Shown: positions 17,311 to 40,555 of the stretch, piece after piece | Numbering within the stretch: position 1 is the stretch's first letter | How the letters are laid out: the number at the start of each line of letters is the position of its first letter | IMG/VR virus record: IMGVR_UViG_3300048999_000021 | Coordinates: 1-52,393 of that record | DNA length: 52,393 nt | Source: a virus | Direction: 5' to 3' (one strand) | Program-made: the position numbers and the translations under genes | The notes under the pieces: generated by a model | Database searches by the model: none | Told to the model about the DNA's origin: nothing | Seen by the model: only the letters and a program-made list of their open reading frames with translations

Positions 17311-17375
17311 AGCCCGACTCCGATCTGGCGGACCCTCATCCGCCGATATACATACTGTACGCCACTATGCAACGT
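17311..17375 (-). promoter_or_regulatory. Leader element: box, TGAGGG hairpin and start motif
   Basis: On the minus strand TTGCATAGTGGCGTACAGT is followed by a perfect hairpin GGCGGA-TGAGGG-TCCGCC (17327-17344) and then GAGTCGGGCT just before GTG 17310. The same three-part order occurs before the genes starting at 40465 and 38862. It is probably a promoter or operator plus a structured 5' UTR; a -35/-10 pair is not clear. Confidence 0.6.
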
Positions 17376-17379
17376 ACGT

Positions 17380-17583
17380 CTACCCCGAGTTGCACAAAGC
17401 CCCGACCGGGACTATGAGTTCTAGGCCGCCGCGACCTCGTGGCCGGGTGACGGCCTTATCGCACAGGTCCGTGACGCTTCGCTTGAAGATGGCACCGATG
17501 TGTTCGAGCAGCCACCCCACATCAGCCGAGCTAGGCGTGTTACGCGGATAGATCCTCAGTTTGCCGGTCGGCCTACTCGGCAT
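17380..17583 (-). CDS. Small conserved-looking hypothetical protein
   Basis: 67 residues from ATG 17583, chosen for GGAGGTACCG just upstream (an identical ribosome site precedes the 97-residue gene at 17866). Starts MPSRPTGKLRIYPRNTPSS and contains WLLEHIGAIFKRSVTDL. No family recognised. The last gene before the leader element at 17311-17375. Confidence 0.6.
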   Translation of the reverse strand: MPSRPTGKLRIYPRNTPSSADVGWLLEHIGAIFKRSVTDLCDKAVTRPRGRGGLELIVPVGALCNSG

Positions 17584-17866
17584 CGGTACCTCCACGGGCC
17601 TCGCTTTGGGCGTGCTTGAAGCCGCGATGGTAGGCGTCACTGAGTAGGTGAGCCAGCTCCGATGAGTCCCATATGAACCGTGCCAAGCACACCGTGGTCT
17701 GGCAGTTGTGATCGAAGAACTGGTGCCGAGTGACGAGGTTCAAGATCTGCTGAAAGTCGTCGTACTCGCAAGCCGCGAGCGGCGTGCTGTCCTCAAGTTC
17801 GTACCTCGTCGCGGCGATGTCCTGCGCTGCTGCGGTTTCTAGGAACGGCCGCATATCAAACATCAT
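17573..17866 (-). CDS. Hypothetical protein, 97 residues
   Basis: From ATG 17866 with GGAGGTACCGA upstream. Sequence is acidic/helical (MRPFLETAAAQDIAATRYEL; FDHNCQTTVCLARFIWDSSE; LAHLLSDAYHRGFKHAQSEA). The final segment, with DAYHRGFKHA, resembles C-terminal helices of small phage proteins of unknown role. Overlaps its neighbours at both ends. Confidence 0.65.
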   Translation of the reverse strand: MMFDMRPFLETAAAQDIAATRYELEDSTPLAACEYDDFQQILNLVTRHQFFDHNCQTTVCLARFIWDSSELAHLLSDAYHRGFKHAQSEARGGTDAE

Positions 17867-18036
17867 TCGGTACCTCCACGAACCACCCGATCGGCGGCGT
17901 GCTCCAGGACACCGTTCCAGCCGATGGCGTGGTCGGTGCGCGGCGAGGGCATGCGCCAGCCACGGACCTCGTCGGCGATGTCGTGAGGGCGGTGAGGTCT
18001 GCCATGATCTTGTCTGCCTTTCCATGTAGGGACCAT
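17863..18036 (-). CDS. Small protein with HDIADEVRGW motif
   Basis: 57 residues from ATG 18036. This frame has a very high GC share at third codon positions (GAC ATC GCC GAC GAG GTC ...), unlike the two competing frames, and ends in an ATGA overlap with the next gene. The core HDIADEVRGWRM ... DHAIGWNGVLEHAADRVV looks like a small helical protein. No clear ribosome site is visible, so the start is uncertain. A 93-residue reading of another frame (18137-17856) was judged less likely. Confidence 0.5.
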   Translation of the reverse strand: MVPTWKGRQDHGRPHRPHDIADEVRGWRMPSPRTDHAIGWNGVLEHAADRVVRGGTE

Positions 18037-18179
18037 ACGAGGTTGCGCAGCGTTGGTTGACGCCGGCGCAGGTATCGCTTCACAGCCGCGAGCTTAGACC
18101 CCGTTTCAGCCCGTCTAGCTGAGCCGCTAGGTGGCATTCTAAGCGATGGGGCTAGCCCTATCCGACGACCGTACGAAAC
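18037..18179. other. Non-coding gap, possible promoter
   Basis: 143 bases without a convincing gene. It holds a 10-bp palindrome (GGGCTAGCCC) and, on the minus strand, TAGAAT in a -10-like position about 90 bases before the 57-residue gene. No matching -35 is clear. I see no tRNA. Confidence 0.3.
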
Positions 18180-18956
18180 CTACGGCTCCATCGAACTAGC
18201 GGCATCCTCAGGCCGCTCTAGGGCTATGAGCTCATCCCGGATCATGCGCCGAACTTCCGGGGAGTTGGGATCAGCCCCGAGGTTCGCTGCAATGTTGGCG
18301 ATCGCGCCGTTGAGCTGGAGCACCAGCGTCTCTTGCAACCGGATACGGCGCTCTTCCAGGCCGGCCGAGATCCCGATCTTGAGCAATGATGCATAGTGAG
18401 TGCGCTCCTTGAGGTAGATCCCGGCCCAGTTGTGGACCCTGGCCTCCTCAACCTCCATCACATATGAGGCATCCTGTGGCTGCCCGCCATCACCATAGCT
18501 AACAGCGGCGTCCTTGACCTCGCGCTTGGTACGGCCCCAGATGACCTCGCTCGGGTCAAGGTCGGCCAGGTACTCCTCGCAGGTGATGATGTTGCCAGCC
18601 GTGCGCCGCAGCTCCCACAGGTAGCCCGTCACAGGGTTCGCGCCGACGTGGTTCTCGTCGGCAAGGTTGTTGCCATAGCCTCGCTTGGCCAGCGCTATGG
18701 TCGCCTTGGCCAGCCTCGACTTGGCTACCACAGAGGGGAACCGGCCGCCGTGAGTGGGCATCTTGCAGGTATGTGTGCCAACCAGAGCCCGATTCTTGCA
18801 GCGCTCACCATTGCGCTTGATGAAGGTGCAGCGCTTGCCGTCATCCAGCGGCGCATCAAAGCCGTTGCTCCTGACACCCCGTGGCCTTTTCACGACCTCG
18901 CTGACCGGCACAGCCTTCACCGGTGGCTTACGACCTCCAGGTGCAACCTTAGCCAT
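18180..18956 (-). CDS. Candidate terminase small subunit
   Basis: 258 residues from ATG 18956 (GGAGGAGTCA upstream). Residues 40-75 contain DGKRCTFIKRNGERCKNRAL ... CKMPTHGG: two Cys pairs and a C-x5-HGG element, as in many actinophage small terminase and HNH-like DNA-binding N-termini. This is followed by a long helical region that could oligomerise (LQETLVLQLNGAIANIAANL). It lies about 3 kb upstream of terL, separated by an operon of small genes and a terminator, which is unusual. Could also be another DNA-binding protein; the call rests on the zinc-like motif and length. Confidence 0.5.
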   Translation of the reverse strand: MAKVAPGGRKPPVKAVPVSEVVKRPRGVRSNGFDAPLDDGKRCTFIKRNGERCKNRALVGTHTCKMPTHGGRFPSVVAKSRLAKATIALAKRGYGNNLADENHVGANPVTGYLWELRRTAGNIITCEEYLADLDPSEVIWGRTKREVKDAAVSYGDGGQPQDASYVMEVEEARVHNWAGIYLKERTHYASLLKIGISAGLEERRIRLQETLVLQLNGAIANIAANLGADPNSPEVRRMIRDELIALERPEDAASSMEP

Positions 18957-18980
18957 TGACTCCTCCAAGCTCTCCAAGAT

Positions 18981-19136
18981 TCAGTTCGACCTAATTCAGT
19001 TCGACCCAGCAGTTCGGTATTTTTCAGCTTTGCATATGTCAGTGGTTTTCAGTTCGACCCCCCTAACGGGGGAGGGTCAAACTAAAACCAGACTGACCCG
19101 CACCATGGGTCAAGGTGGGTCAAGGTGGGTCAAACT
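18981..19136. repeat. Iteron-like cluster, candidate replication origin
   Basis: On the plus strand, CAGTTCGACC occurs at 18982-18991, 18997-19006 and 19050-19059, with a partial copy at 19010-19017. Its near-inverse GGGTCAAACT occurs at 19074-19083 and 19127-19136, with the related GGGTCAAGGT in tandem at 19107-19116 and 19117-19126. The two orientations meet in a dyad around CCCCCTAACGGGGG (19058-19074). The cluster overlaps the 3' end of a RepA-like helicase gene, and the upstream sequence is AT-rich by local standards (TATTTTTC). This suggests an origin or a regulator-binding site; the dyad could also stop transcription. Confidence 0.6.
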
Positions 19137-20408
19137 AGAATCCGGCGCGCCCTTGAAACCATTGCTGTGCACTTTAATTCTGCCATTCGAGGGCACATTT
19201 TGACCTGCGTCTTCAAGCGAATATATCCATGCATTATGCGCACCCTTTGCCACGTCCAGAACACCCCTGGCTTGCATAGACTTAAGCACCTCCTTCTTCT
19301 TGTCGCTATTGCCCGGGACTGCCCCGATCAGGTCGCCCTGGTTCATACGGGCACCGCCGGCCAGCGCCGCCAGCACAGCTGCCTCTATGCGCCCTAGCTG
19401 ATTGCCTCTACGGCTCTCTGTGCCGGCCCATGACAACCGCCGCGTACCCCGGTCATAGTCGATAGAGAACTCGCTCAGGTCGACATCGCGCCCGTACGCG
19501 CTCATGTATCGACGTCCGCTGCCGGATGTGGGCAGCTCATTGTCCTCAGCGTCATACCGGTATGTCACTAACGCATCAGGCCAGTCCTGCAACCGAGAGC
19601 TGCCCCGCGCTCGGGGTAGGGCGTCACCTTCGGGCGGATGCCCGGTGTGAGATATGAGCACGAGCCCGCTCAGGCCAGCCCTGAGCTTGATGGAGTCGAG
19701 TGCCGTGGTCCAGTTACGGACTTCGGATGCGCTGTTCTCTTCGCCATCGTAGATGGCGCCAAAGGGATCGACAATTAGCACAGAAACCTTCTTGCGCCTC
19801 AGGTAGTCGACCAGCCAGTCGGCCGTGGCCGGCGCAGCTAACGGGAGCGCGTACCCGCGCCAGTGCTCAACGTGGAGGCGGTTGGCGTTATCAAGCTCCA
19901 TCTCCGCTAGCCAAGTCTGCATCTGCGGAGCAGATACCTCGATGTTCAGATACGACACCGTCCGCCCCGCTGGTAGGCGAGTTGGGAAGTGGCCTAGGAA
20001 GTCGTCTCCGGTGGCCAATGACGCAGCCATATTCAGCGCCAGGGTGCTCTTTCCGGCTTTGTGCTGGGCCTGCACCAGCATGTTACCGCCCTCGATAAGC
20101 AAGTCCTCCACGAGCCAGTTCGGGGCTGGCAGCGGGCTCGCTATCTGGGAGGCAGCTGTGCCGAACTCAGGCGGGGCAGCCCAGCCCTTCTCCGCGACGC
20201 GAGCCTTGGCAGCGGCCTGCAGCTCTATGTAGCGCACCGCCTTGTCGAGGTCAGCCTCGTCATAAAGCGCGGCTGCCTTGCCGAGTGAACCGCCGTCAAC
20301 CGCCACCAGCTTAGCGGATGGATCAGCTGGGGTGTCAGCCCGTTTGGCAGACGGTCGAGCGCCCTTTTTAGGGCCGCGCCTCGGCGGCAACTCCTTCGCG
20401 GTAGTCAT
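19110..20408 (-). CDS. RepA-like replicative AAA helicase
   Basis: 432 residues. Walker A at VQAQHKAGKSTLALN, Walker B at VSVLIVDPFGAIYD, followed by GLVLISHTGH and an R-containing loop (LPRARGSSRLQDW), typical of AAA_25/RepA hexameric helicases. A C-terminal winged-helix-like part (GRIEAAVLAALAGGARMNQG) follows. It probably unwinds DNA at the phage fork. It is encoded right after the TOPRIM primase, overlapping by 4 bp. Its last codons lie within the repeat cluster 18981-19136. Confidence 0.8.
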   Translation of the reverse strand: MTTAKELPPRRGPKKGARPSAKRADTPADPSAKLVAVDGGSLGKAAALYDEADLDKAVRYIELQAAAKARVAEKGWAAPPEFGTAASQIASPLPAPNWLVEDLLIEGGNMLVQAQHKAGKSTLALNMAASLATGDDFLGHFPTRLPAGRTVSYLNIEVSAPQMQTWLAEMELDNANRLHVEHWRGYALPLAAPATADWLVDYLRRKKVSVLIVDPFGAIYDGEENSASEVRNWTTALDSIKLRAGLSGLVLISHTGHPPEGDALPRARGSSRLQDWPDALVTYRYDAEDNELPTSGSGRRYMSAYGRDVDLSEFSIDYDRGTRRLSWAGTESRRGNQLGRIEAAVLAALAGGARMNQGDLIGAVPGNSDKKKEVLKSMQARGVLDVAKGAHNAWIYSLEDAGQNVPSNGRIKVHSNGFKGAPDSSLTHLDPP

Positions 20409-21058
20409 GCGATGTGTATGGTCAAGTTGTACCCAAGCGACTTGAGGGAGGAGCGCGTGGTGCGCCCGGCTGCACTCGCTATCCCTCCTAGGTCGCTGAC
20501 GGACACAAGATCCTCTGGGCCATAACCCGCTTCAAGATGGTCTGTGACATCCTTCCCAGCCCGAGCATGCGCTACAACTATCCGCTCTGCAGCCACTCCC
20601 GCAATCTGAAGCAGGTCAAACCTCTTCCACACATCCGCCATCCCCACATTGCCGCCCCGCTTGTCGTCCGGGTCTAGGTCATACAGAAGCACAACCCGCT
20701 TAGCCCCGGCCAGCCAAGCCGCCTGCTTGAGCGAGATCTTGCCGGCGCCGCCGTGGTGAGAGGTGGCGACCAGGCCTATTGCCTTAAGGGAGTCCGCGTC
20801 CTTCTCGCCCTCAGGCCACCAGATTGTCTGGCCGTTTTGCACCGCTGCAACGACCTTGGGCAGGTTATAGATCAGATGCGCCCAGGCGCTCGGCATCTTA
20901 GGCACCCAAACGTACCCCGGACCGTGTCGCCAGCGATAAGTGATGTCCTTGGTTGCGCCGGTCGGGCTCGGAGGGTCAAGCCGATACCGGACACGTTGGA
21001 ATCTCTCGATGCTGAACTGGTCGGTGTACGAATAGGCGCACTCGAATATGCGCCCCAT
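20405..21058 (-). CDS. TOPRIM primase-like protein
   Basis: 217 residues. TOPRIM core: WWPEGEKDADSLKAIGL (catalytic Glu) and RVVLLYDLDPDDKRGG (DxD), followed by VVAHARAGKDVTDHLEAGYG. The zinc-binding N-terminal domain of DnaG is reduced to about 80 residues with no Cys cluster. It likely synthesises primers with the adjacent helicase, as in split primase-helicase systems. A polymerase-like RNAP core beyond TOPRIM is not evident, so primer synthesis may need a partner. Confidence 0.75.
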   Translation of the reverse strand: MGRIFECAYSYTDQFSIERFQRVRYRLDPPSPTGATKDITYRWRHGPGYVWVPKMPSAWAHLIYNLPKVVAAVQNGQTIWWPEGEKDADSLKAIGLVATSHHGGAGKISLKQAAWLAGAKRVVLLYDLDPDDKRGGNVGMADVWKRFDLLQIAGVAAERIVVAHARAGKDVTDHLEAGYGPEDLVSVSDLGGIASAAGRTTRSSLKSLGYNLTIHIA

Positions 21059-21060
21059 CC

Positions 21061-21219
21061 CTATCTGCCAGAGGTGAACTCAGCGTTAAGCAGCTCAAGG
21101 CAGTATACGCACACCGGCCCGATATCAACAGCGTTGTCGCTCTCGTTGATCACTACTTCCTCCCAGGGGAAAGATCCGTGGCAAAGCTTGCATACGTGGC
21201 TCAAAGGAATAATCTTCAT
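21061..21219 (-). CDS. Small zinc-ribbon protein
   Basis: 52 residues from ATG 21219, overlapping the previous TGA. Two Cys pairs, CKLCHGS and CVYCLEL, form a probable treble-clef or zinc ribbon. Sequence MKIIPLSHVCKLC ... LLNAEFTSGR. Immediately upstream of the primase, whose own zinc domain appears missing, so it may supply template binding in trans; this is a guess. Confidence 0.6.
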   Translation of the reverse strand: MKIIPLSHVCKLCHGSFPWEEVVINESDNAVDIGPVCVYCLELLNAEFTSGR

Positions 21220-24335: not shown

Positions 24336-24708
24336 CATCCACATCCATAGGCCACGCGATAGCCTGCGAACGGTCAACCACAAGGACGGTCGAGCAGCCC
24401 GGTGCGACGCAGTGGTACGCGTTCGCGTTCGCTGGATCCTTGCCGCGTTCCAAAACATGCTGAGGCCCCCACGCATCGCGATGGTTGGCCCGGGCGTCGG
24501 CGAGATCGTCCGGAGGGATCATCTCAACGCTAGCCTGCGGAGTCATGAGCTCAGCCGTAGCAGCGTCGCTGCGCTGCTTCACCGCGCCCTTGGCGGGCGT
24601 GTTGGTGGGCGTGTCAGCCTTCGATCCGCCAGCGCCTTTCCGGCGGTAGCCGTCGATAAGCTCCTGCTTCTCCTTGCGGGAGAGGGCTCGTCGCGAGCGG
24701 CGATTCAC
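24328..24708 (-). CDS. Hypothetical protein, 126 residues
   Basis: From GTG 24708 (GGGAGGCATC upstream, GTGA overlap with the previous stop). Basic N-terminus (RRSRRALSRKEKQELIDGY), disordered centre, C-terminal AYHCVAPGCSTVLVVDRS with a Cys pair, ending acidic (DVDDE). Function unknown. Confidence 0.6.
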   Translation of the reverse strand: MNRRSRRALSRKEKQELIDGYRRKGAGGSKADTPTNTPAKGAVKQRSDAATAELMTPQASVEMIPPDDLADARANHRDAWGPQHVLERGKDPANANAYHCVAPGCSTVLVVDRSQAIAWPMDVDDE

Positions 24709-24932
24709 GATGCCTCCCAACCAAGAAACGCCGGCAACGCCGGCATCACGCTCGTCTCCGCCGACGACTCGCGAACGACGTACGCGAGGTAGGCGATTGA
24801 GTGGTGATGCGGGAAGGCGGAGCGAGCCCGCTTCCGGACCTGGCGGTTGATGCGGAGCCGCGCGAGCCCCTGGTACATGCGGGTGGTTCGCGGGGAGAAC
24901 CGGCGCGAACCTCGATAGCGATAGCGGCGCAC
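24705..24932 (-). CDS. Small basic protein behind a leader element
   Basis: 75 residues from GTG 24932 (MRRYRYRGSRRFSPRTTRMY ...), extremely Arg-rich at the N-terminus, so probably nucleic-acid binding. A variant of the start element (AGTCGGAAGGAGG) and a TGAGGG hairpin precede it, and it heads the run of small genes from 24932 to 21686. Confidence 0.55.
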   Translation of the reverse strand: MRRYRYRGSRRFSPRTTRMYQGLARLRINRQVRKRARSAFPHHHSIAYLAYVVRESSAETSVMPALPAFLGWEAS

Positions 24933-24943
24933 GGGGCGCCTCC

Positions 24944-25007
24944 TTCCGACTCTGGCCAGACCCTCATCTGACCTGGGGTGGATCCTAGGCTTGATTCTTC
25001 GGTACGT
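24944..25007 (-). promoter_or_regulatory. Leader element before 24932 gene
   Basis: Between the polymerase stop (25008) and the 75-residue gene. Hairpin CAGA-TGAGGG-TCTG at 24957-24970, followed by AGTCGGAA and AGGAGG. The hairpin loop equals that of the leaders at 17327, 38882 and 40493. The upstream TGCAWAGT/GGAGTA box is not evident here. Confidence 0.5.
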
Positions 25008-28000
25008 CTAGCTAGCCTTCGCGTCCTCCCAGTCCGCCGGGTCAAGTACCTGCATACGGTCTACGTAGATCGCCACGCCAAAGCCCTTGCGCTTGATGCC
25101 GGACGCGATCACGACGTCACCGATATTCAGCCCGGACAGCGCCCGCTCGAACCGGCGGAAGGCCTTGACGCGGTGGAACCGTAGGTAGACGTCTTCTTCG
25201 CCATCGTCAAAGCAGTGCAGCGTGCATGACTTGGGCATATCCGGCCGCCACAACCGCTCCCGGATCATGTCGAGCGAGTCGCCCGAGCGAGCCCGCTCAT
25301 CCTCAATCGCGTCCTTGTACTCCCGAGCCCGGACGAACCCGAGCCAGGTGACCCGGAGCTTGTCGGCGTCCGGATCGATCTCGTCTGAGCGGTAGTTGGG
25401 TACGAGCAGCCCGTCTGGGTTGCCAGGGTAGAGGTCGGCCCGGATCGAGTCGAGGATGCGCCCGGGCCGGAGCACGCCAAACGGGTCATCGCTCTCAGCG
25501 AACGCGCGGATCGTCTCGATCTTCTTCGGGCCTACACCCTTGACGCGGTTTAGATCGCTCCACGTCTTGTATGGGCCGCCGTCGAGGATGGCCGGGGTCA
25601 TCTTGACGCCGATACCCGGAACCTGAACCAAGCCGGCTCGGGCCTGCCGGGCCACGGGGTCAGCCGTCCAGCTCGCCGTCATCCGCTTCAGGCTCGGCCC
25701 GAGCACCTCGACATCGTGTCGCCGGGCGTCCCGGATGAGCCGGGTGATCTTCGGCTTGCCGTCCTTGTTGGCTTCGATCTTGGACAGCTGCGCAGCGTAG
25801 AACTCGGCGGGGTGGTGAACCTTGAGCCATTGGCACCAGAACCCCAGCATCGAGTAGGAGATGCAGTGCGCAATGTTGAAGGAGTAGGTCGCCGATGTCA
25901 CCATCAGCTTCCAGATCCGCAACGCTAACGCCTCGTCGACGCCGTGAAGCCGGGCCGCGCCGTCGCGGAACTCCTCCCACATCGCATTGAAGGACGCCTC
26001 GCCGAGCTTCTGCGAGATGATCTTGCGGATGTCTCCGATCTTCGTGACCGGGAACCCGCCCATGTCGCGGATGATCGAGAGGACCTGCTCCTGGTAGATG
26101 ATCTGGCCGTAGGTCGATTGCGAGTACTGGTCCACGATCGGGTGCAGGCTATCGACCTCGGCGCGCCCGTGCTTCGACTCGATGTAGGCGGCAGCTGCTC
26201 CGGAGAACAGCGGGCCGGGTCGGGCGAGCGCGTTGATGTCGGCGAGGTGCATGAAGTTGTCCGGCGATACCGCCGAGCACACGAGCCGGGTAGCTCGGCC
26301 CTCGAACTGGAAGATCCCTACCACGTCGGCGCGCTTGAAAGCGGCGAGCGTCTCGGGGTCATCGAGCGGGATCGCGTACAACTCATCGAGCGGCATGTTG
26401 ATAGACTTCAACGCGATGTCGATCATGCCCATCGTCTTGAGCCCGAGGAAATCGGCCTTCAGGAGATTGAGGTAAGCCGCATCATACTTGTCGGTAGCGA
26501 GAGCATCAACCACGCGTCCATCTGCCCCGACAGTCCGCTGATAAACTGCTGTGACCTCGGTGATCGGCCGAGAGCTAACGACGATCCCAGCCGCGTGTAC
26601 TCCCATGCCTCGGTAGTTGCCCTCCAGTCTGATCGCGGCTTCCAGCTCAGGGTGCTCGGCGAAGACGGCGGCCGCAGCCGGAAACATGTCGCGGGTGTCG
26701 CCGAGACTCGCGTCAAACCGGCTGTCACCACCGCTTCGCTCAACGATAAGTCCCTTGACCGTCTCGGCCGCGTACTTGGGGATGCGGTAGACGCGCGCCA
26801 CGTCGTCGATTGCGTTCTTGCCCCTGTAGCGAGTGAAGGTGCCGATGTTTCCGACATGGTCAGCTCCATACTTGCCGACTAGGTGTAGCCGGATCTCATC
26901 CCGGCGGTCATCCGAGAAGTCCAGGTCAACGTCGGGGAGATCCTCGCGGGTGAGGTCGATGAACCGCTCGAACACCATCGTCGGGAACAGCAGCGGGTTA
27001 ACCTCGGTAATGCGAAGGAGGTAGCACACAAACGAAGCGGCCGCGCTACCGCGCGCCGGACCGACGGGAATGCCGGAGTCCTTCGCGAACCGGACGGCGT
27101 CCGAAAGCATGAGGAAGTAGTCGAGATAGTCCTTGGCCGTAACCACGTCCATCTCGTAGGACAGCCGCTTCACCGCCATCTCCTTGTTCTCGGAGACGAA
27201 CGCGCGGAAGTCGGGCGAGTGCTTCATGCGGTACTTCCACCCCGCCCGCAGCCATCCCCAAATCAGATCAACGGTGGTTTCGCCCGCGTCAAGCGGGTAG
27301 CGGAGCGGCTCAGCCTTTGGGAGAACAACAGTGCATCGAGATGAGATCTCGCTCGTGCTGAGAAGCGCGCGTTCAGAATCTTTTTGGCTGAGTCCAGTGC
27401 CAGCAAGTCTTCGTAGAACCGATTGATCGTTGCTGGGGAGGGTGAGGGGGATGTCGTACTCCCATCCAGCCTCAGCGGCTTCGACGGTTCCGGTTCCACC
27501 TCGGAGCGCGGCGTGGAGGACTTTTTGGAGCTCGTTGTCCTCTCGGCGCGGGTAATGCACATCGTGAGTAGCAACGAGCGGGACCCCGAGCTGACTGGAT
27601 AGGTCTGCGAATGCTGAGTTGAGAATCCTCGTCCGCTCAAGCTCAGGGAAAGCTTGCACCTCAAGGTAGTAACGGTCACCGAATAGCCGCTTGAACCGCT
27701 CGACAGTGCGCTTCGCAGCTTCCCAGTCCGGTCGATCTTCATGGAGCTCTCTCCCTTTCCCGCCGAGCAGGTCACAACTCAGCATCGAGTCAGCGCACCC
27801 ACTCAGGACTATGAGGCCTTCGTTGTGCTCCTTCAGCATGGCGCCGTCTACCGTGGGCCACTGATAGAACCCTTCAGCGTACGACCGCGAGACCAGCCGC
27901 ATGAGGTTGATGTAGCCGACCTGGTCCATGGCAAGAACCGTCAAGTGCCACTTGCGCCGGGTCCGCTCAGCAGCTGTGTACAGCTCTACCCCGTACAAGG

Positions 28001-28925: not shown

Positions 28926-29074
28926 CGCCTGCCCTTTCGGCGCTTGTTGCAAGCCGGACGGGAGGCGCACACGTAGAACGTCTGTCCGGGATGGGCCTCG
29001 CTCGGGGCAGCCTCGCGCATCCGATCCTCGTAACGAACCAGGCCACAGCGAGCGCACTCACGCAGCTTCTTCAT
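28922..29074 (-). CDS. Zinc-ribbon protein, 50 residues
   Basis: MKKLRECARCGLVRYED ... YVCASRPACNKRRKGRR. C-x-x-C and C-x-x-x-x-x-C pairs separated by about 26 residues, with a basic tail. ATG 29074 overlaps the UDG stop (TGATG). Too short for the usual ORF limits but framed by coupled overlaps at both ends. Confidence 0.6.
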   Translation of the reverse strand: MKKLRECARCGLVRYEDRMREAAPSEAHPGQTFYVCASRPACNKRRKGRR

Positions 29075-29637
29075 CACGCCTCCAGGATGAGCCGGCGAAG
29101 CACGGAGAAGTCCTTGCGGAGATCCTCCAGGAGCAGCGGGTTGTAGAGCGCGGCGGCCGGGTGGAACGTCGGCAGGTACACCCGACCACGCCGCGCGCGC
29201 TCCTGTCCGTGGTCTCGGGAGATGGAGACGTCTGCCCCGAACACTAGCTGATAGGCGAACCGGCCCACCAGCACAACCACTCTCGGCTCGATCGTCGTCA
29301 GCTCGACGCCCAGGTGCGAGCGAGCGGCTAGGACTTCCTCGGGGAGCGGGTCACGGTTGCCTGGTGGCCGGTACTTGACTACATTGGTGACGTAGACGTA
29401 CTCGCGCCGGACCCCGCTGTACTCCTCTAGCATCCGGTCTAGGAGCGCTCCGGCTCGGCCAACGAACGGGCGGCCTTCGGCATTCTCCGTCCGCCCGGGC
29501 GCCTCCCCAATCAGCATCACCCGAGCGTCGAGCGGTCCGTCTCCCGGCACGAAACGCGAGTGCGCCCGGAGGTGCGCGAAGGCGTCATCCCGCTCGTAGC
29601 TCCGGTTGAGCTTGAGGATCGCGGCTTCTTTGCTCAT
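29074..29637 (-). CDS. Uracil-DNA glycosylase, family 4-like without cysteines
   Basis: 187 residues from ATG 29637 (GGAGGTCGGT upstream). Motif 1: VMLIGEAPGRTENAEGRPFV; motif near the end: LPTFHPAAALYNP. These are the family 4/5 UDG signatures. Family 4 enzymes normally hold a 4Fe-4S cluster with four Cys, but this protein has no cysteine. It removes uracil from DNA, or, if inactive, could bind UDG-like targets. The gene follows ThyX by a 4-bp overlap, fitting control of dUMP/uracil content. Confidence 0.8.
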   Translation of the reverse strand: MSKEAAILKLNRSYERDDAFAHLRAHSRFVPGDGPLDARVMLIGEAPGRTENAEGRPFVGRAGALLDRMLEEYSGVRREYVYVTNVVKYRPPGNRDPLPEEVLAARSHLGVELTTIEPRVVVLVGRFAYQLVFGADVSISRDHGQERARRGRVYLPTFHPAAALYNPLLLEDLRKDFSVLRRLILEA

Positions 29638-30698
29638 ACCGACCTCCGGGCTGCGCTCGGGTCTGCCAGCCATTCCTCAGGCCTGATGGCTTCGATCAGT
29701 ACACCTGTCTTCATGGTCTTGTCAACATCCTGCCAGCGCGGATCGATGGGCGTATCCCCATCAGCCATCATCCGCCCACCCCACTCGCTTGACGGGCGGC
29801 CAGCCATGTGGTTGGCCTCAACGCGCTCGCGGATCGAGCAGTGACGGTCGAACTCCGACATGAACTCGCACTTGCCCGTTGCGTAGCAGATCGGCCGGAA
29901 CAGGTCGGCGAGCTTGTCGGCCATGTACACGCCGCTCTCGCGGATCGCCTTGACGATCCCGATCTCTACTTTCTTCCATTCGAACTGTGCCTGACTACAA
30001 AGTCTGTTGCCGGCGTGCTCCAGGAGGTTCCGCAGGTCGGTCTTGTAGTGGATCCGCGTCGTGATGTTCGTCGGGAGCAGCCCCCGGGCGTCCTCGGCCG
30101 GCATGCCCATGTTTACGAGCATGTTGTAGGCTGTCGCAGTTCGGGCTACCTGCTGATCCCAAACGTCTCGCATCATCTGCTGCTTGTCATCACGAGTGAA
30201 CTCCCCGACCATATCCTCGCCTCGACCATTCGCCAGGGTAATGCTGCCATCCCAGGGCTCTGTGCCGAGCAGGCTCGGAGGCAGCGCGACCTCGTGCGCG
30301 CCGTTTGTCTTGACGGCAAAGCGCTGGGACTCCTGGACGTAGACAGCCGTCCGCTGCCGAACCAGCTGATGGGTGAAGGCGCGCGTGACACCCTCGATCA
30401 GGAAGTGGATTGACACGAACTCGAACGGGGCCTTGAGTCGCGTGTTCTTGAACTGCTCAAAGTAGTGCAGCCGATCCTCGTCCGTCACCTCCTGCTCGGC
30501 GTATGCGCTGATCCTGTAGGGTGACTTGACGGGCTGGCCCTCGTACATCTTGGCAGCTGCGGCGATCACGCCGAGCGGGTCCGGCGTCATCGAGATCAAC
30601 TTCACGCTCGGCTCGACGGGTTCGCTACCCGTGTTGGTTGGTACCGCTTCGAACATTGCCTTATCGGACCAGTTCTGTATTTCCTTGCCTTCACTCAT
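29634..30698 (-). CDS. thyX: Flavin-dependent thymidylate synthase ThyX-like
   Basis: 354 residues from ATG 30698, preceded by AGGAGTCGGG. The ThyX signature RHRxxSxNExSxR is seen as FTHQLVRQRTAVYVQESQRF, with the canonical His replaced by Gln and Asn by Val. N-terminal LISMTPDPLGVIAAAAKMY and C-terminal RPICYATGKCEFMSEFDRH fit the family. ThyX makes dTMP from dUMP with folate and FAD. It is longer than bacterial ThyX (about 220-250 aa), as in some phage enzymes, and the divergent signature leaves room for a modified-pyrimidine role. Confidence 0.8.
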   Translation of the reverse strand: MSEGKEIQNWSDKAMFEAVPTNTGSEPVEPSVKLISMTPDPLGVIAAAAKMYEGQPVKSPYRISAYAEQEVTDEDRLHYFEQFKNTRLKAPFEFVSIHFLIEGVTRAFTHQLVRQRTAVYVQESQRFAVKTNGAHEVALPPSLLGTEPWDGSITLANGRGEDMVGEFTRDDKQQMMRDVWDQQVARTATAYNMLVNMGMPAEDARGLLPTNITTRIHYKTDLRNLLEHAGNRLCSQAQFEWKKVEIGIVKAIRESGVYMADKLADLFRPICYATGKCEFMSEFDRHCSIRERVEANHMAGRPSSEWGGRMMADGDTPIDPRWQDVDKTMKTGVLIEAIRPEEWLADPSAARRSV

Positions 30699-30705
30699 CC
30701 CGACT
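30698..30705 (-). promoter_or_regulatory. AGTCGGGA start element before thyX
   Basis: AATAGGAGTCGGGATGAG: the motif overlaps the A of ATG 30698, with AGGAG as ribosome site. Confidence 0.7.
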
Positions 30706-30717
30706 CCTATTGTGTTG

Positions 30718-31113
30718 TTAGTCCCAGGGCTTGCCGCGCTCATCGCCAGCCTCGTACAGCCGGGCGAAGAAAGCGGCGTAGTTGATCGCGTCGAGCGCGT
30801 TGTCGATTGGCTTCTCTGTGTTGCCGTTCGGAGCGACCTTGTACCACAGGCTCGCCATCAGCCGGTTCACCTTGCCCTTGAGCGCGAGGAGGTTTCCGAG
30901 GTACCCGGCTGACTTCCATGCGTCCGGCGTGACCTCGTTGCGCTCGCGATAGAGCACAAGCGCAGCGGCTAGCATCCGGGCGTGCTGCCACAAAGTGTCA
31001 AACTCTTGTCCGCCCGAGTCGACGTTGAGAACGATCAGCATCTCCTGCGCGCAATCCTCGATCTGACGATGGTTCGCGCTGATGATCTGGCTTGACTCGC
31101 GGTAGCCGGCCAT
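30718..31113 (-). CDS. Possible nucleotide-modification-associated (DUF1599-like) protein
   Basis: 131 residues. Segment YLGNLLALKGKVNRLMASLW ... DNALDAINYAAFFARL resembles the C-terminal helices of DUF1599 / nucleotide modification associated domain proteins, where a K/R-x-x-R-helix and a DxxxDxxNYxxF helix form a nucleotide site. It lies between a flavoprotein and ThyX, consistent with nucleotide chemistry, but the family call is tentative. No conserved catalytic triad is evident. Confidence 0.45.
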   Translation of the reverse strand: MAGYRESSQIISANHRQIEDCAQEMLIVLNVDSGGQEFDTLWQHARMLAAALVLYRERNEVTPDAWKSAGYLGNLLALKGKVNRLMASLWYKVAPNGNTEKPIDNALDAINYAAFFARLYEAGDERGKPWD

Positions 31114-31865
31114 CAGACCTCCTCGCAGATCGCCGTGCGCGTGTCATAGTAAGCCGTATCAACCCAGGTTTCGTTTTTCCAGGCGCCGAACCGTCCGGTC
31201 CGGAACACCTCGGGATTGCAGTCGCAGGTGGTCGACAGCGGCTTGGAGATGATGACGGCGTCGGGCGGGGCTGCCGCCAAGGGCCACTCCGTCGCGCCCC
31301 ACCCGAAGATCACCGACGACCGCACCCATGGAACCTCCGGGTCGCCGTTCATGATGACCGTGTTCATCTCCTGGCCCTCCACGGAGCACTCCGGGGTAAT
31401 CCCGACCTGGCGGTGCGTAAAGACATGAGTTGGCACCCGACAGAACTGGCTCGCCGGAGCGGTGTTCACTACCAGGTCGAAGCTCTCAGCCATGCCCGGC
31501 AGCAGCCCGGGCGTCACGCGGATGTCGGTGATCCGGTCGCGGTAGACATCCCACAGCTTGTCGTACGTCTCGTGCATCGCCCAGGCGTGCCGGCTCTCTA
31601 CCTGGCCGTTGATCGTGATGTTGACATCGCCGTAGAGCTTCCGCCGGTAGTCGAGGATCGTCCCGCCCTCAACCCACTCGCGGATGTAGCCGTCGGGGTG
31701 GTCTAGCGTCATCCCGGGGATCGGCGCCCGGAGGTAGATCGGTCCACGCAGTGGAGACTTCCGGCGCGGCGCGAAGATCTCAACGCCACACCCGAGGCCC
31801 TCAGCTGCCCAGGCAGCAGCCAGGCTACTCGGGCCGCACCCGATCACGGCAACACTCTTGATCAT
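31113..31865 (-). CDS. Rossmann-fold flavoprotein/oxidoreductase-like protein
   Basis: 250 residues. N-terminus KSVAVIGCGPSSLAAAWAAE is a GxGxxS dinucleotide-binding loop, followed by EIFAPRRKSPLRG. A later DLVVNTAPASQF segment fits an FAD- or NAD-binding fold. It lacks the C-terminal reductase parts of longer flavoenzymes. Located 1.2 kb from ThyX with a 131-residue protein between, so it may supply reducing equivalents or modify a base; no homologous pathway can be proven here. GAGCCCGA precedes ATG 31865, a variant of the start motif. Confidence 0.6.
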   Translation of the reverse strand: MIKSVAVIGCGPSSLAAAWAAEGLGCGVEIFAPRRKSPLRGPIYLRAPIPGMTLDHPDGYIREWVEGGTILDYRRKLYGDVNITINGQVESRHAWAMHETYDKLWDVYRDRITDIRVTPGLLPGMAESFDLVVNTAPASQFCRVPTHVFTHRQVGITPECSVEGQEMNTVIMNGDPEVPWVRSSVIFGWGATEWPLAAAPPDAVIISKPLSTTCDCNPEVFRTGRFGAWKNETWVDTAYYDTRTAICEEV

Positions 31866-32101
31866 TCGGGCTCCCGGTGAGTATGGTTGACGTCACGGCG
31901 GTTCGGCGGATCATCCTCGTATCCGCGAAAGTGAGCATGCTGGTGGTAGGCGCGCATGGACCTGATCACGCCCTCGCTCACGTTCGCGCGGACCGTGGAC
32001 AACCCGCCGATCGGCACGTGCCGTAGGTTGAAGTGTGCAAAGAACGTCTCGTTATCCATCTCGTCTGCAGGTGCGACTCGACGGAGTTTGGCTTTCGCCA
32101 T
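31862..32101 (-). CDS. Small hypothetical protein
   Basis: 79 residues from ATG 32101, preceded by GAGGGGAGTCGGG (start element). Starts MAKAKLRRVAPADEMDNETF; His-rich C-terminus (YHQHAHFRGYEDD ... HTHREPE) that could bind metal. It heads the cassette of flavoprotein, DUF1599-like protein, ThyX and UDG. Confidence 0.6.
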   Translation of the reverse strand: MAKAKLRRVAPADEMDNETFFAHFNLRHVPIGGLSTVRANVSEGVIRSMRAYHQHAHFRGYEDDPPNRRDVNHTHREPE

Positions 32102-32158
32102 CCCGACTCCCCTCGATGTGAGGATGGTAGACCGGATCTTGAACCGCGTCTACCTGTA
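32101..32158 (-). promoter_or_regulatory. Start element and hairpin before 32101 gene
   Basis: AGTCGGGA at 32101-32108 overlaps the A of the ATG. Upstream, GGTAGAC pairs with GTCTACC around a 15-base loop, another hairpin in front of the motif. Its loop does not read TGAGGG. Confidence 0.55.
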
Positions 32159-36168: not shown

Positions 36169-36176
36169 TCCCGACT
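36169..36176 (-). promoter_or_regulatory. AGTCGGGA start element before MazG-like gene
   Basis: CAGAGGAGTCGGGAATGGG: core directly abuts ATG 36168 with GAGGAG as ribosome site. Confidence 0.7.
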
Positions 36177-36200
36177 CCTCTGTTTGTTTGCCCTCAAGGC

Positions 36201-36258: not shown

Positions 36259-36269
36259 ACTTTCAAGGC

Positions 36270-36286
36270 CCAGCTTGGAAAGCTGG
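36270..36286 (-). terminator. Small hairpin after the H1-like gene
   Basis: CCAGCTT-loop-AAGCTGG, 7-bp stem with 3-base loop, 10 bases downstream of the H1-like stop. No U tract; probably a weak terminator or part of the leader structure. Confidence 0.45.
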
Positions 36287-36295
36287 ACGGCTCGG

Positions 36296-36709
36296 TTACT
36301 CCTCTTCGAATGGATCTTGCACGGCGGCCAGGTTGCCCCGAGCGGCCGGAGCCTTCTTGGCTGGAGCCTTCTTCGCGGGAGCGCGCTTCGCGGGGGCAGC
36401 CTTGGCCGGAGCCTTCTTGGCAGCGACCTTCGCCGGCGCAGCCTTCGCGGCCGGCGCCTTCGCGGCGCGGGGCTTGCGAGGAGGCTTCGGCGCGTTGCGC
36501 CTGACCTCGGCGACCGCCTTGCGCGCGGCGAGTGACTGCTGGTTCTCCGGGGACTTCTGGAACACGAACCGCAGGCGCTGGAACAGCACCATCGTGGTCA
36601 CGTCCGGGGTGTAGCCGGTCTGGCGTTCGATGAAGTCGGCGAACGCGGTCTGGACGGCAGTGGGCTTCTGCTCGGCCAACTCGGCGAGGGGTGGCGTGTT
36701 CTTGGCCAT
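36296..36709 (-). CDS. Histone H1-like nucleoid protein
   Basis: 137 residues from ATG 36709 (CGAAGGAGCAATC upstream). Residues 1-70 form a small helical domain (AVQTAFADFIERQTGYTPDV). Residues 74-124 are repeats of PAKKA/AAPAK (lysine-alanine-proline), like actinobacterial and eukaryotic H1 tails. It ends in the acidic NLAAVQDPFEEE, similar to the DPF tip of SSB proteins. Likely coats or organises DNA and may bind the same partners as the SSB-like protein. Its own promoter-like sequence lies just upstream. Confidence 0.7.
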   Translation of the reverse strand: MAKNTPPLAELAEQKPTAVQTAFADFIERQTGYTPDVTTMVLFQRLRFVFQKSPENQQSLAARKAVAEVRRNAPKPPRKPRAAKAPAAKAAPAKVAAKKAPAKAAPAKRAPAKKAPAKKAPAARGNLAAVQDPFEEE

Positions 36710-36763
36710 GCTGATTGCTCCTTCGATTGATGTTTGGCCTGTTGGCCGGGAACGTTACTCCAA

Positions 36764-36792
36764 ATTCAAAAACATGGACACTTTGTTGTCAA
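36764..36792 (-). promoter_or_regulatory. Promoter-like sequence upstream of H1-like gene
   Basis: On the minus strand TTGACA (36787-36792), spacer 17, TTGAAT (36764-36769), in a locally AT-rich stretch, rare in this genome. GGAGTAACG and a GGCC-AACA-GGCC hairpin follow, resembling the other leaders. Good -35, fair -10. Confidence 0.6.
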
Positions 36793-36806
36793 GAAAATAT
36801 GGCGAG

Positions 36807-38681
36807 CTAATCCGCCTTGCGACCGGATAGGAGCGCCCGAACCACCTCGACTCCGCGCCTCTCATCCAGCCAGGACCGGGTGTCCTTGTCGCGCATAGAC
36901 GTCGTCCGGGCTATGCCCTCCTCGATTGTGCCGAGCGAGTGCAGGTACCAGACTGTCTTGGCCCGAGCCTCGCCGGTCGTGTTGTCGATACGAAACTCAA
37001 GCTGGACCTGATCATCGGGTATCCATGTCTCATCGATGATGAATATTTCGTCAGCGGCGTTGAGCTCGATCCCGACACCGCCGGTCTTGGTCTGCAGCAG
37101 CAGCACCCGGGCCGCAGGCACGGTCTGGAACTCCTCGATGATCCAGGCGCGATCCTTGTTTGGCACGGCGCCCGTCAGGACGAGATGCGGAATGCCTGCC
37201 ATCTGCGACAGGGTGTGGCTGAGCAGATCTAGCGTCTTCGTCGACTGCGACGCGATCACGATCTTGGAGTCACCTTCCGGGCTCTCGGCCGGCGAGCGGA
37301 TACCGCGCTCCTCCAGCGCACCGAGCAGGTAGTCGACCTTGTTGGACGGTAGCTCGGCCCAGACGTCCTCGCCGTTTGTGTCGAGGTGGTGGTTAGCAAA
37401 CTGCTTCGCCCGGGTCATCTCCGCCAACACGCCGTTCGCCGATAGTTCGCCCGACCCGAGGTCGATCGTCGCCGACTTCGCGAACCGCTCATAGGCTGTC
37501 TTTTGCTTCCCTTCCATCGGCAACCACACCGCGACGGGCGAGCTGGGATCGCTCGGGTCTAGGGGCTCTCCGCCGTACATCCGCGCGGGTAGCTCGGGCC
37601 GGACCTCGGCGGTCGTCCGTCGCAGCATCATCCGGCTCAGCTCCGCCTCCAGCGCCTCCTCGACGCCGGGCAGCTGCTCGCCGATCTCCAGGCCGTAGCC
37701 ACCCTCGATCACGTCCCAGTACTGCTTGATCCAAAACCACTTGCTCGCGTAGAGGTCGGGCCGGAGCCAGTTGAACGTGCCCCAGTAGTTCTGGTTGTTG
37801 CCTCGGGCCGGCGTCCCCGTGAGACAGAAGCGGAATGCCGTGGGGTTGAGCTTCGCGAGATGGACCATGCCCTGCCGGTTGGCTGACATCTTGAGCGTGT
37901 TGGGACCAATCAGGACCTCTTGCGACTCGTCGCAGATCATGCCTTCGAACAGCGCCGGATCGTGGAGAGCCGGATAGTCCGGCGGCAGCAGCTGCACCTC
38001 GCCGGACTTCTCCGTCTTGCGGATGCGCAGCATGGCCGGGTTGGCAAGGATGAATGTGAAGGAGTCGGGGTACTTGATCGAGTACTCGAACGCAGCGGAG
38101 ATCGTTTCCTCGCGCTTGGCGCGGACACCGACAGCCGCAAATGCAGCCCCCAGCCCCGGTAGCCAGCGCGCAATCTGCCGGGCCCACACCGTTTCCAGGG
38201 TGGTAGCGGGCGCGCTGACCAGGTACAGGCCCGGACGGTTGTTCTCGACCACAGCGGCGAGCGCCTGGATCGTCTTGCCGAGCCGTGGCTCATCCGCGAG
38301 GAGCGAGGCCTGCGCCGAGACCAGGTACTTGACGCCTATCGTCTGGTATGGACGGAGCGCGGCGTACAGCTCCGGAGCGAGGCGCGGCAGGTTCTCCAGC
38401 TCGACGCTGTCCCGGCGAGACAGGTCAACGAGCTCGGCGGTTCGCTCCTTCTCGCCGCGCGCCCACTCGGCCAGCTCCGGTCCGATCTCCAGCGCGTCGC
38501 CGAACACCGCGCGTAGCTTCAAGCACACGGACCAATCGAGCGGATAGTTCCACGTCTTCGTGCTCGGCGCCCAACGGGCGCCTGGTACGCGCTTCGCGTA
38601 GACCGGGCCGTCCCCGTTGGCGTACGGGATGCGGGCGACAATCCGTCGCCCGTCCCGCTCGATCGAAACCGTCCCTCGCAT
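36807..38681 (-). CDS. SNF2-like DEAD/H helicase
   Basis: 624 residues. Motif I LLADEPRLGKTIQALAAVV (Walker A variant PRLGKT), motif II MICDESQEVLIG, motif III FCLTGTPARGN, C-terminal helicase part with KIVIASQSTKTLDLLS, VLLLQTKTGGVGIELNA (motif V), and EIFIIDETWIPDDQVQLEFR (motif VI region). N-terminal 70 residues resemble the HARP-like module (PGARWAPSTKTWNYPLDW). SNF2-like phage helicases probably remodel or translocate on DNA during replication or recombination. Overlaps no gene but is close to its neighbours. Confidence 0.85.
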   Translation of the reverse strand: MRGTVSIERDGRRIVARIPYANGDGPVYAKRVPGARWAPSTKTWNYPLDWSVCLKLRAVFGDALEIGPELAEWARGEKERTAELVDLSRRDSVELENLPRLAPELYAALRPYQTIGVKYLVSAQASLLADEPRLGKTIQALAAVVENNRPGLYLVSAPATTLETVWARQIARWLPGLGAAFAAVGVRAKREETISAAFEYSIKYPDSFTFILANPAMLRIRKTEKSGEVQLLPPDYPALHDPALFEGMICDESQEVLIGPNTLKMSANRQGMVHLAKLNPTAFRFCLTGTPARGNNQNYWGTFNWLRPDLYASKWFWIKQYWDVIEGGYGLEIGEQLPGVEEALEAELSRMMLRRTTAEVRPELPARMYGGEPLDPSDPSSPVAVWLPMEGKQKTAYERFAKSATIDLGSGELSANGVLAEMTRAKQFANHHLDTNGEDVWAELPSNKVDYLLGALEERGIRSPAESPEGDSKIVIASQSTKTLDLLSHTLSQMAGIPHLVLTGAVPNKDRAWIIEEFQTVPAARVLLLQTKTGGVGIELNAADEIFIIDETWIPDDQVQLEFRIDNTTGEARAKTVWYLHSLGTIEEGIARTTSMRDKDTRSWLDERRGVEVVRALLSGRKAD

Positions 38682-38682
38682 G

Positions 38683-38862
38683 TCAGCGCTCGTTCCAGCT
38701 CTCGACGGCGAACGGGTCAGACTCCGTCACCACGGCCTCCTCCACGCTCACCAGCAGCGAGATCCGGTCAGCCGACATCTCTGCCTCGGCATAGCTGTCG
38801 AAGTCGTGGTCCAAGTTGCGATAGGTCGACTCGCCTGCGTAGCGGTACTCGACTCCGAACAT
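38683..38862 (-). CDS. Small hypothetical protein
   Basis: 59 residues from ATG 38862 (a leader element precedes it: GAGCCGGGAGCAGAC). Starts MFGVEYRYAGESTYRNLDHD, acidic, ending in FAVESWNER. The fold is probably beta-alpha. It heads the operon with the SNF2-like helicase. Confidence 0.6.
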   Translation of the reverse strand: MFGVEYRYAGESTYRNLDHDFDSYAEAEMSADRISLLVSVEEAVVTESDPFAVESWNER

Positions 38863-38867
38863 GTCTG

Positions 38868-38930
38868 CTCCCGGCTCTCGGGCGGGACCCTCATCCCGCG
38901 TAGCACAGACGCTACTCCACATACTTTGCA
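38868..38930 (-). promoter_or_regulatory. Leader element before 38862 gene
   Basis: Order on the minus strand: TGCAAAGTATGTGGAGTAGC, hairpin GCGGGA-TGAGGG-TCCCGC (38882-38899), then GAGAGCCGGGAG and the ATG. The TGCAWAGT-N4-GGAGTA arrangement matches that before 40465 at identical spacing. Confidence 0.65.
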
Positions 38931-38934
38931 TTGG

Positions 38935-39690
38935 CTAGCGGACCTGCACCAGCGCGTCGAGGAACAGCGCCCGGTATCCCTCGCCCGACTCGTCGCAGAA
39001 CGACAAGATCCGCCGGCCTAGCGTGTCCTCAGCCTTTGAGTTGGTGATGAAGGTGGAAGTGTCAGAGACTGTCTTGAAACCTTCCTTGGTCTTGATCTCG
39101 CGAAGCTCAGCCGGCACCCGACCCTCCTCGTACGCGTTCGACATCGAGTTGCGCCACACCAGCTTGCGGCCTCTGATCTTGGCCAGCACGGTGGCGTCAT
39201 CAGCGGTCAAAGGATCGAATGGGACCTTCTGGGTCAGCTGGCGTACGGCAGCCTGGGCCACGCCGACCGGGCGCCGAGTGCTCATCGGAGCGTTCTCGAT
39301 CGCGGTCTGGCTGAGGATCTTCCGGCCCTCGCTCGCGTTGCGGACGTTGCGCGCGTGCTTGGCAGCCTCGTAGCGACCGGGATAGACGAACTGGTCGTTG
39401 GACGCCCAGCTCAGCTCCAGCGCCTCCGTCCCGCGCCGAGCGAGCACCGTCTTTCGCTTGGTCTTCGGATCGCGGATCTTCTCCACGGTCCACCCGGCCG
39501 CCTCTGCATCATCGGCGAACCGGCGTGGCTTGCTCGGAGTGGCGGACTGGCTCGCGCTCGCCATGGGCGCGGCGATCTCGTCCTTGGCTCGGTTCTTCGG
39601 CAGCTTCGAGGTCGCGTTGTTGGCTGCGTGTCTCTCGCTGAGTGCGGCCGCGCGGCGGCGACCTGCACCCTTGACTGTGGTTGTGGCCAT
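38935..39690 (-). CDS. Hypothetical protein, 251 residues
   Basis: From ATG 39690 (GGGAGTCGGGAAGGAACC upstream). The first 60 residues are basic and Ala/Ser-rich. The middle has a small alpha/beta region (WTVEKIRDPKTKRKTVLARR; YEAAKHARNVRNASEGRKIL). The C-terminal half contains FDPLTADDATVLAKIRGRKL followed by VWRN, and ends GEGYRALFLDALVQVR. No recognised domain; it may be DNA-binding. Confidence 0.6.
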   Translation of the reverse strand: MATTTVKGAGRRRAAALSERHAANNATSKLPKNRAKDEIAAPMASASQSATPSKPRRFADDAEAAGWTVEKIRDPKTKRKTVLARRGTEALELSWASNDQFVYPGRYEAAKHARNVRNASEGRKILSQTAIENAPMSTRRPVGVAQAAVRQLTQKVPFDPLTADDATVLAKIRGRKLVWRNSMSNAYEEGRVPAELREIKTKEGFKTVSDTSTFITNSKAEDTLGRRILSFCDESGEGYRALFLDALVQVR

Positions 39691-39700
39691 GTTGGTTCCT

Positions 39701-39723
39701 TCCCGACTCCCGGCCCTCACCGG
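39701..39723 (-). promoter_or_regulatory. Start element and TGAGGG hairpin before 39690 gene
   Basis: Hairpin CCGG-TGAGGG-CCGG (39710-39723) followed by AGTCGGGA (39701-39708) and AAGGAACC before ATG 39690. The upstream box is absent, so this copy lies inside a transcript. Confidence 0.6.
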
Positions 39724-39734
39724 ATGGATGGAGC

Positions 39735-39923
39735 CTACCGCCCGAGGCGACGGTAGGCTACCTGACCTTGCCGCCAGATCCAGCGGAGCGTCAAACCTGT
39801 GTAGATCACAGCGTAGACGATGCCCGTGATCAGAGCTCCGATAACCCAGCCGATGAGAGCCAGCCAGAACGGCGCTACGTATTCTGGCTGGCCGCCACGG
39901 ATGATGATGGGCAGGGTTACCAC
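39735..39923 (-). CDS. Small membrane protein
   Basis: 62 residues from GTG 39923, overlapping the previous stop. Two hydrophobic stretches (FWLALIGWVIGALITGIVYA and IYTGLTLRW) and a basic C-terminus (RQGQVAYRRLGR). Could be a holin-like or host-membrane factor; no sign of which. Confidence 0.55.
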   Translation of the reverse strand: MVTLPIIIRGGQPEYVAPFWLALIGWVIGALITGIVYAVIYTGLTLRWIWRQGQVAYRRLGR

Positions 39924-40465
39924 CCCACCTTCGACGCGCAGACCGGGCCGATACCGCGCTGGATTGACTCAGCGTCGGTGAGCGTCCGGTTGCAGATCCC
40001 GCAGCGTCCGAGCTGGTGGCCGTAGGCGATCGCAGCCTGCTTCGCGTCGAACGCGATCGCAGTCAGGATCGTCGCGGCCTTGCTCAAGCTCTTGACCGGG
40101 TGGAAGTCGTCCGAGGCCTGGACCTTGACGAACGTGTAGCCCTTCCAGCGCCCGTCCTGCGGACGATCGATCTTGTAGAAGCGCCACACCTTCTCAGTCG
40201 AGCCGGCGAACTCGCCGAGCTTCATTTCTTCGATCGCGTAGTACGCGGTCGCTACGTTCGGCAGCGAGCGAGCGGCTGCGCGGATCTCGTCGACAGGCGA
40301 GGGACGGTGCTCGCGGACCGGCGCGGCGGGCAGGCGACTCGCGCCTGGGGCGTCATAGACCTGGGGCAGTTCGGCGTTCGGGAGCTTGCCCGAGTTGCCG
40401 TAGCACTGCTTCACGCCCGCGCTGTTCTCGTGGTAGTCCTTGCAGTTTCCGCATTTGACGGCCAT
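39917..40465 (-). CDS. DUF6011-like zinc protein
   Basis: 182 residues from ATG 40465. The C-terminus GRCGICNRTLTDAESIQRGI followed by GPVCASK is the DUF6011 signature (C-x-x-C, RGIGPVC), and the N-terminus has another zinc-like cluster (CGNCKDY ... QCYGN). The central domain (FYKIDRPQDGRWKGYTFVKV) is beta-rich. Common in actinophages, function unknown, perhaps DNA or RNA binding. It heads the early/middle region and follows the best-formed leader element. Confidence 0.7.
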   Translation of the reverse strand: MAVKCGNCKDYHENSAGVKQCYGNSGKLPNAELPQVYDAPGASRLPAAPVREHRPSPVDEIRAAARSLPNVATAYYAIEEMKLGEFAGSTEKVWRFYKIDRPQDGRWKGYTFVKVQASDDFHPVKSLSKAATILTAIAFDAKQAAIAYGHQLGRCGICNRTLTDAESIQRGIGPVCASKVGW

Positions 40466-40479
40466 GTCTGCTGGCCCCT

Positions 40480-40555
40480 TCCCGACTCGTGCGCCGGACC
40501 CTCATCCGGCTTCGTAGCTCCGACTGTACTCCAGCAACTATGCATATCAAAATAG
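40480..40555 (-). promoter_or_regulatory. Leader element before 40465 gene
   Basis: Minus strand: TTGATA and TGCATAGT-N4-GGAGTACAGTC, hairpin GCCGGA-TGAGGG-TCCGGC (40493-40510), then GAGTCGGGAAGGGG before the ATG. With TTGATA as -35 and TACAGT as -10 the spacer is 16, so this may be an active promoter for the early region. Confidence 0.65.

Follow-up and report, generated by a model that had tools for sequence, protein, structure and literature searches.

Why should hairpins with different stems carry one and the same loop ahead of several genes of a single viral genome? The question is raised by the virus contig IMGVR_UViG_3300048999_000021, whose entire length of 52,393 bases was analysed and is called the window here. 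Almost all genes of the window are carried by the minus strand. Its DnaE-like polymerase shows 50-59% identity to those of Nocardia phage P3.1, cluster D mycobacteriophages, Gordonia Lamboviruses and several IMG/VR phages, and the helicase, Cas4-like exonuclease, Sak4, ThyX-like and polymerase genes stand together, arranged much as they are in P3.1 and GretelLyn. Our best explanation as a whole, held with moderate confidence, is that the window represents an actinophage-like virus with a compact leader module.

Hairpins with one loop and different stems

Five TGAGGG-loop hairpins with five different stems were found in the window, as the preliminary description had claimed, all of them on the minus strand and each between a promoter and a start codon. 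The loops lie at 40504-40499, 39719-39714, 38893-38888, 24966-24961 and 17338-17333, and the stems are 6, 5, 6, 7 and 6 bp long, respectively. At the remaining minus-strand TGAGGG sites the stem does not exceed 2 bp. TGAGGG is not enriched on this strand (23 observed, 32 expected); it is the stems, not the TGAGGG count, that are non-random.

Among the five copies 96.7% of the cells were paired, as compared with 73.5% after shuffling, and the covariation score was 0.70 versus 0.22; none of 500 shuffles reached the observed covariation. RNA folding of the five leaders placed each hairpin in the minimum-energy structure. The folding stability of the whole leaders was ordinary (z from -1.7 to +0.4), so the evidence for the structure is the covariation and not stability. 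Since the TGAGGG loop was seen in no other searched genome, covariation of this particular form rests on five copies.

Leader 1 (40463..40550, minus strand) combines the -35 element TTGATA (40550-40545) and the -10 element TACAGT (40528-40523) with the hairpin GCCGGA-TGAGGG-TCCGGC (40510-40493), the start motif GAGTCGGGA (40488-40480) and the ATG at 40465 of gene 39917-40465, which encodes a DUF6011 zinc-ribbon protein. Leader 2 (39688..39760, minus strand) has TAGCCT (39760-39755) and TAGGCT (39737-39732) as -35 and -10, the hairpin TCCGG-TGAGGG-CCGGG (39724-39709) and the start motif GAGTCGGGA (39709-39701), followed by the ATG at 39690 of gene 38935-39690 (phrog_5307). The corresponding elements of leader 3 (38860..38937, minus strand) are TAGCCA (38937-38932), TAGCGT (38914-38909), GCGGGA-TGAGGG-TCCCGC (38899-38882), GAGCCGGGA (38877-38869) and the ATG at 38862 of gene 38683-38862. 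Leaders 4 and 5 end in GTG start codons. Leader 4 (24930..25010, minus strand) contains TAGACG (25010-25005), TAGGAT (24987-24982), GGTCAGA-TGAGGG-TCTGGCC (24973-24954) and GAGTCGGAA (24952-24944), and its GTG at 24932 begins gene 24705-24932. Leader 5 (17308..17382, minus strand), with TAGACG (17382-17377), TACAGT (17359-17354), GGCGGA-TGAGGG-TCCGCC (17344-17327), GAGTCGGGC (17320-17312) and GTG at 17310, precedes the small gene 17143-17310, after which come the terminase and portal genes.

A separate feature is a long terminator-like inverted repeat (40560-40624) with 19-nt arms (89%), which stands just ahead of leader 1 in the region that separates the lysis genes from the first replication gene.

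Promoter and start motif

Alignment of the leaders and a spacing test yielded the promoter pattern TAGNCN-N17-TANNNT, of which the window has five copies, all on the minus strand. Four of these copies precede hairpins, with 7-9 nt between the end of the -10 and the stem, so the predicted mRNA starts within a few bases of the hairpin. The fifth, at 32152, precedes a gene with a start motif and no hairpin. In this variant (32099..32152, minus strand) the elements TAGACG (32152-32147) and TACCAT (32129-32124) are followed by GAGTCGGGA (32109-32101) and the ATG at 32101 of gene 31862-32101. The promoter of leader 1, TTGATA-16-TACAGT, was found independently by a consensus scan. The recurring promoter is SigA-like in sequence, and the hairpins of the window begin 7-12 nt past the -10. 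As an incidental feature, in two leaders (38937-38935 and 25010-25008) the preceding gene has the TAG of the -35 as its stop codon.

Seven exact copies of the start motif GAGTCGGGA are found on the minus strand, each of them next to a start codon; hairpin leaders account for two, the start at 32101 has one, and the other four stand alone. The lone copies adjoin an ATG (43304..43312), stand directly 5′ of ATG 36168 (36169..36177) or ATG 16377 (16378..16386), or overlap ATG 30698 (30698..30706), an in-frame start within ORF 29634-30743. The other three hairpin leaders carry the one-base variants GAGCCGGGA, GAGTCGGAA and GAGTCGGGC given above.

A TGCAWAGT/GGAGTA box had earlier been described as part of the cassette. 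The minus strand has three exact copies of TGCAWAGT (40544, 38930 and 17371), one next to each of the three 6-bp hairpins, and two of the full TGCAWAGT-N4-GGAGTA. In these three leaders TGCAWAGT falls within the -35/-10 spacer; GGAGTA, where present, overlaps the -10. Because the box is missing from the other two leaders, it was set aside as a binding site. Thus the earlier proposal of a promoter with a structured 5′ UTR holds, with TAGNCN-17-TANNNT or TTGATA-16-TACAGT in place of the box as the promoter; the label "phage-specific" fits the loop and the start motif but not the promoter, which is common to relatives.

Another copy had been reported as TGCAAAG before a small-terminase candidate. 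At this site, 19034, a hairpin and a start motif are both lacking, and gene 18180-18977 matches only the uncharacterised PHROG phrog_3678, so the terminase assignment is not supported. In the intergenic region upstream of this gene (18979-19140), possibly an iteron or origin region, the 13-nt repeat ATTCAGTTCGACC occurs three times, along with paired repeats of the GGGTCAAACT type.

Leaders with other loops in other phages

A covariance model built from the five leaders, as had been suggested, matched within the window only those five and, weakly, the 32152 leader (sixth-best match; 17.6 bits, E 0.003). It also gave a weak match in the IMG/VR contig G010, where the same promoter is followed by a hairpin with an AGCGAG loop and the start motif GAGAGGGA, which favours the coding strand by 17 to 1. 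The pattern common to the window and G010 led to contigs G028 and G029, and a later scan to L444.

The four contigs together contain 14 AGCGAG hairpins. Paired cells amounted to 94% versus 66% in shuffled alignments and double-changed cells to 17 versus 6, and none of 500 shuffles reached these values. For the joint set of 19 hairpins the covariation score was 0.805 versus 0.227. When sites were picked by loop and start motif and the stems were ignored, nearly all folded anyway. A TANNNT box lies upstream of the nominal 6-bp stem in 21 of 21 leaders, ending 9-12 nt before it in 19 and nearer in two (6 and 3 nt); among random positions 3.2% matched a TANNNT gap of 7-12 nt.

Orthologous leaders, those of the MTTTID and MYGS genes, keep the loop and differ in their stems; the 5′ arms at the MTTTID gene in four phages are GGGGCG, GGGCGG, GAGCGG and CGGCGG. 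Covariation in homologous genomes, a check proposed in the preliminary description, was thus found in the AGCGAG phages and in orthologous leaders, and with that of the window it supports an RNA structure with a conserved loop. By BLAST the gene of leader 1 has leader-bearing orthologues in G014 and G015, with promoter-linked hairpins of other forms; a clear pattern of constant loop and variable stem was not found in these two. The first genes of G010 and G028 (MIKCGHC.. and MINCGHC..) are related to it more weakly, through G014. With the same promoter class, G015 (L256-L259) has CC-GGGA-GG hairpins and G014 (L264-L266) has TGTACTNG just past the -10. In the relatives L010-L014 the palindrome TTGACGTCAA, with 6-9 copies in about 20 kb, is probably another regulatory repeat family.

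Scans of IMG/VR by loop and start motif for the TGAGGG form gave only chance matches, and the four matches in bacterial genomes had stems of 3-4 bp and were judged to be chance. A terminase protein scan gave no match, and none was confirmed as a relative when the 40465 protein was used for scanning.

An unbiased scan took the interval from a TANNNT box to a start codon and accepted any loop that recurred there on different stems. It returned the window (TGAGGG, five stems), G029 (four), G028 (three) and the cultured Gordonia phage GretelLyn (AGAGC, three), and at the two-stem level G010; none of 336 simulated genome-strands gave a loop with at least two stems. The scan found nothing in the close relatives Troll4, Nocardia P3.1 and Tres or in the cluster K phage Anaya.

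In the cultured Gordonia Lamboviruses the AGAGC loop is found at four leaders with four stems; AGAGC hairpins belong to genes 43, 44, 48 and 55. Eleven of twelve further Lamboviruses have AGAGC hairpins at two to four leaders, the exception being DumpTruck. At an orthologous site LuckyLeo has CCGGGAG-AGAGC-CTCCTGG and the others CCGAGGG-AGAGC-CCCTTGG, a difference of two compensatory swaps. DumpTruck and Zany have the CCGAGGG/CCCTTGG stem of the others but the loop CAGACGA. This loop also defines a second class of Lambovirus leaders with the left arm CCGAGGG (L309, about 14100, and orthologues), which in nearly all isolates examined precedes the position of GretelLyn gene 41. Two loop classes thus occur in one Lambovirus genome, AGAGC or AGAGT plus CAGACGA, and their coexistence indicates that the loop is a module and not simply one code per phage. 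The open-access literature that was searched yielded no description of such leaders from Gordonia phages.

Possible role of the leaders and known systems

The architecture of the leaders and their covariation are established at the sequence level, as is the fact that other phages use different loops in parallel, and the loops across phages suggest an undescribed RNA signal read by a candidate partner. We favour, with some reserve, a module of SigA-like promoter, hairpin, start motif and start codon in which the loop is recognised in trans and sets translation or stability. When the promoter fires, the hairpin would begin about 2-6 nt past the predicted transcription start: it lies about 9-10 nt past the -10 in most leaders, which by normal promoter geometry corresponds to about +3 to +5. 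It would then form at the extreme 5′ end of the mRNA, with the start motif in the ribosome-binding region and the start codon next. The distance from hairpin end to start codon is nearly fixed, usually 16-22 nt, and from this spacing the hairpin end is predicted to fall where a bound 30S subunit has its upstream edge. Acting as RNA, the hairpin would offer its loop for recognition and use the stem only as a scaffold. A loop that stays constant while its stem varies is the mark of recognition through the loop, as at the gp43 operator of T4, and favours a trans-acting factor, most likely a protein, whose binding beside the 30S footprint may set the translation or stability of a set of mRNAs jointly. 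Somewhat less probably, the leaders belong to an undescribed actinophage 5′-leader RNA family in which the short loop (TGAGGG, AGCGAG, AGAGC, CAGACGA) is an interchangeable address, the stem is free to vary, and an RNA-binding factor of phage or host coordinates many transcripts.

Neither a binding protein nor an antisense RNA, both suggested earlier, was found. In a comparison of seven genomes the product of gene 29074-29673, a uracil-DNA glycosylase (UDG) superfamily protein, was common only to the window and three AGCGAG phages; it was rejected as a partner by co-occurrence. Lambovirus gene 44, without a family match, is 93% identical in LuckyLeo and 36% in DumpTruck, and is weak as a loop-class partner because Zany carries both loop classes. 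Since the loop of the window with its closing base reads A/GTG (ATGAGGG), an upstream open reading frame was considered and rejected: conservation of the frames is lacking, and no start codon is present in the loops of other phages.

An origin of the hairpins by chance, TGAGGG being misread in a GC-rich genome, would agree with its lack of enrichment, but is refuted by the shuffles, the null genome-strands and the parallel loops in independent phages, and we give it next to no weight. A 5′-terminal stabiliser blocking 5′-end-dependent decay would need no sequence-specific partner. The few nucleotides between predicted 5′ end and hairpin and the short stem just ahead of the ribosome footprint suit such a role, yet it does not require every copy in a genome to have the same loop, nor phages to differ in their loops in a coordinated way, and we consider it unlikely. 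Operators are commonly inverted repeats beside promoters, and what has been proposed for cluster K ESAS offers a precedent for a double-stranded DNA site bound by a repressor. In the present hairpins the arms vary yet remain complementary, and constancy is confined to the unpaired centre, opposite to what characterises an operator, and the ESAS of Anaya differs from them in its near-constant arms and its overlap with the -35/-10; a DNA operator is highly improbable.

In lambdoid phages several operons have RNA hairpins close to the promoter, with loops that are phage-specific (lambda boxB/nut, HK022 put). The leaders resemble these in both respects and head the replication (40465) and late (17310) regions, as would suit a processive antitermination or polymerase modification signal in which the nascent hairpin is loaded onto RNA polymerase. 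That mechanism does not require the near-fixed distance to the start codon. Unlike lambda nut, the window has no enrichment of boxA (CGCTCTTTA; two one-mismatch matches against 6.8 expected), and an N-like protein was not identified in it; we find this explanation doubtful, less probable than a stabiliser.

Recognition of the loop in trans would make the leaders pointers to a candidate RNA-binding regulator, which could be of use for orthogonal expression control in actinobacteria. With the naturally varying stems and loops that cultured Gordonia phages offer, the role of the leaders is directly testable.

Covariance models of Rfam families gave no match at gathering score. T4 RegA is a phage factor acting at the translation starts of many phage mRNAs, at A+U-rich, unstructured sites that overlap the AUG (PMC3014915); the factor proposed here would act similarly, unlike RegA on structured leaders. 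In the T4/RB69 gp43 operator, recognition is through the loop bases of a hairpin that precedes the ribosome-binding site, and related phages have altered loops; each genome has one such site, to which the phage DNA polymerase binds (PMC3014915). The window shares the upstream hairpin with a conserved loop, but has five leaders in one genome and a DnaE-like, not a family B, polymerase. In cluster K phages the SAS, a 13-bp start motif (GGGATAGGAGCCC), stands at the starts of a subset of genes, and in about half an upstream element, the ESAS, carries a SigA-like promoter and a 17-bp inverted repeat, conserved by gene; the repeat has near-constant arms, overlaps the -35/-10, was proposed as a repressor-bound DNA operator and was judged to lend no support to RNA pairing (PMC3203893; PMC11373665). 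GGGATAGGAGCCC itself has three two-mismatch matches in the window, all on the plus strand and at chance level. The layout is alike, GAGTCGGGA standing at the start codons of a subset of genes, whereas the hairpins, compared with the ESAS of Anaya, lie past the -10 and have variable arms and a constant loop. Judged from these features, the repeat of the window clearly appears to be RNA, in a system parallel to SAS/ESAS of cluster K.
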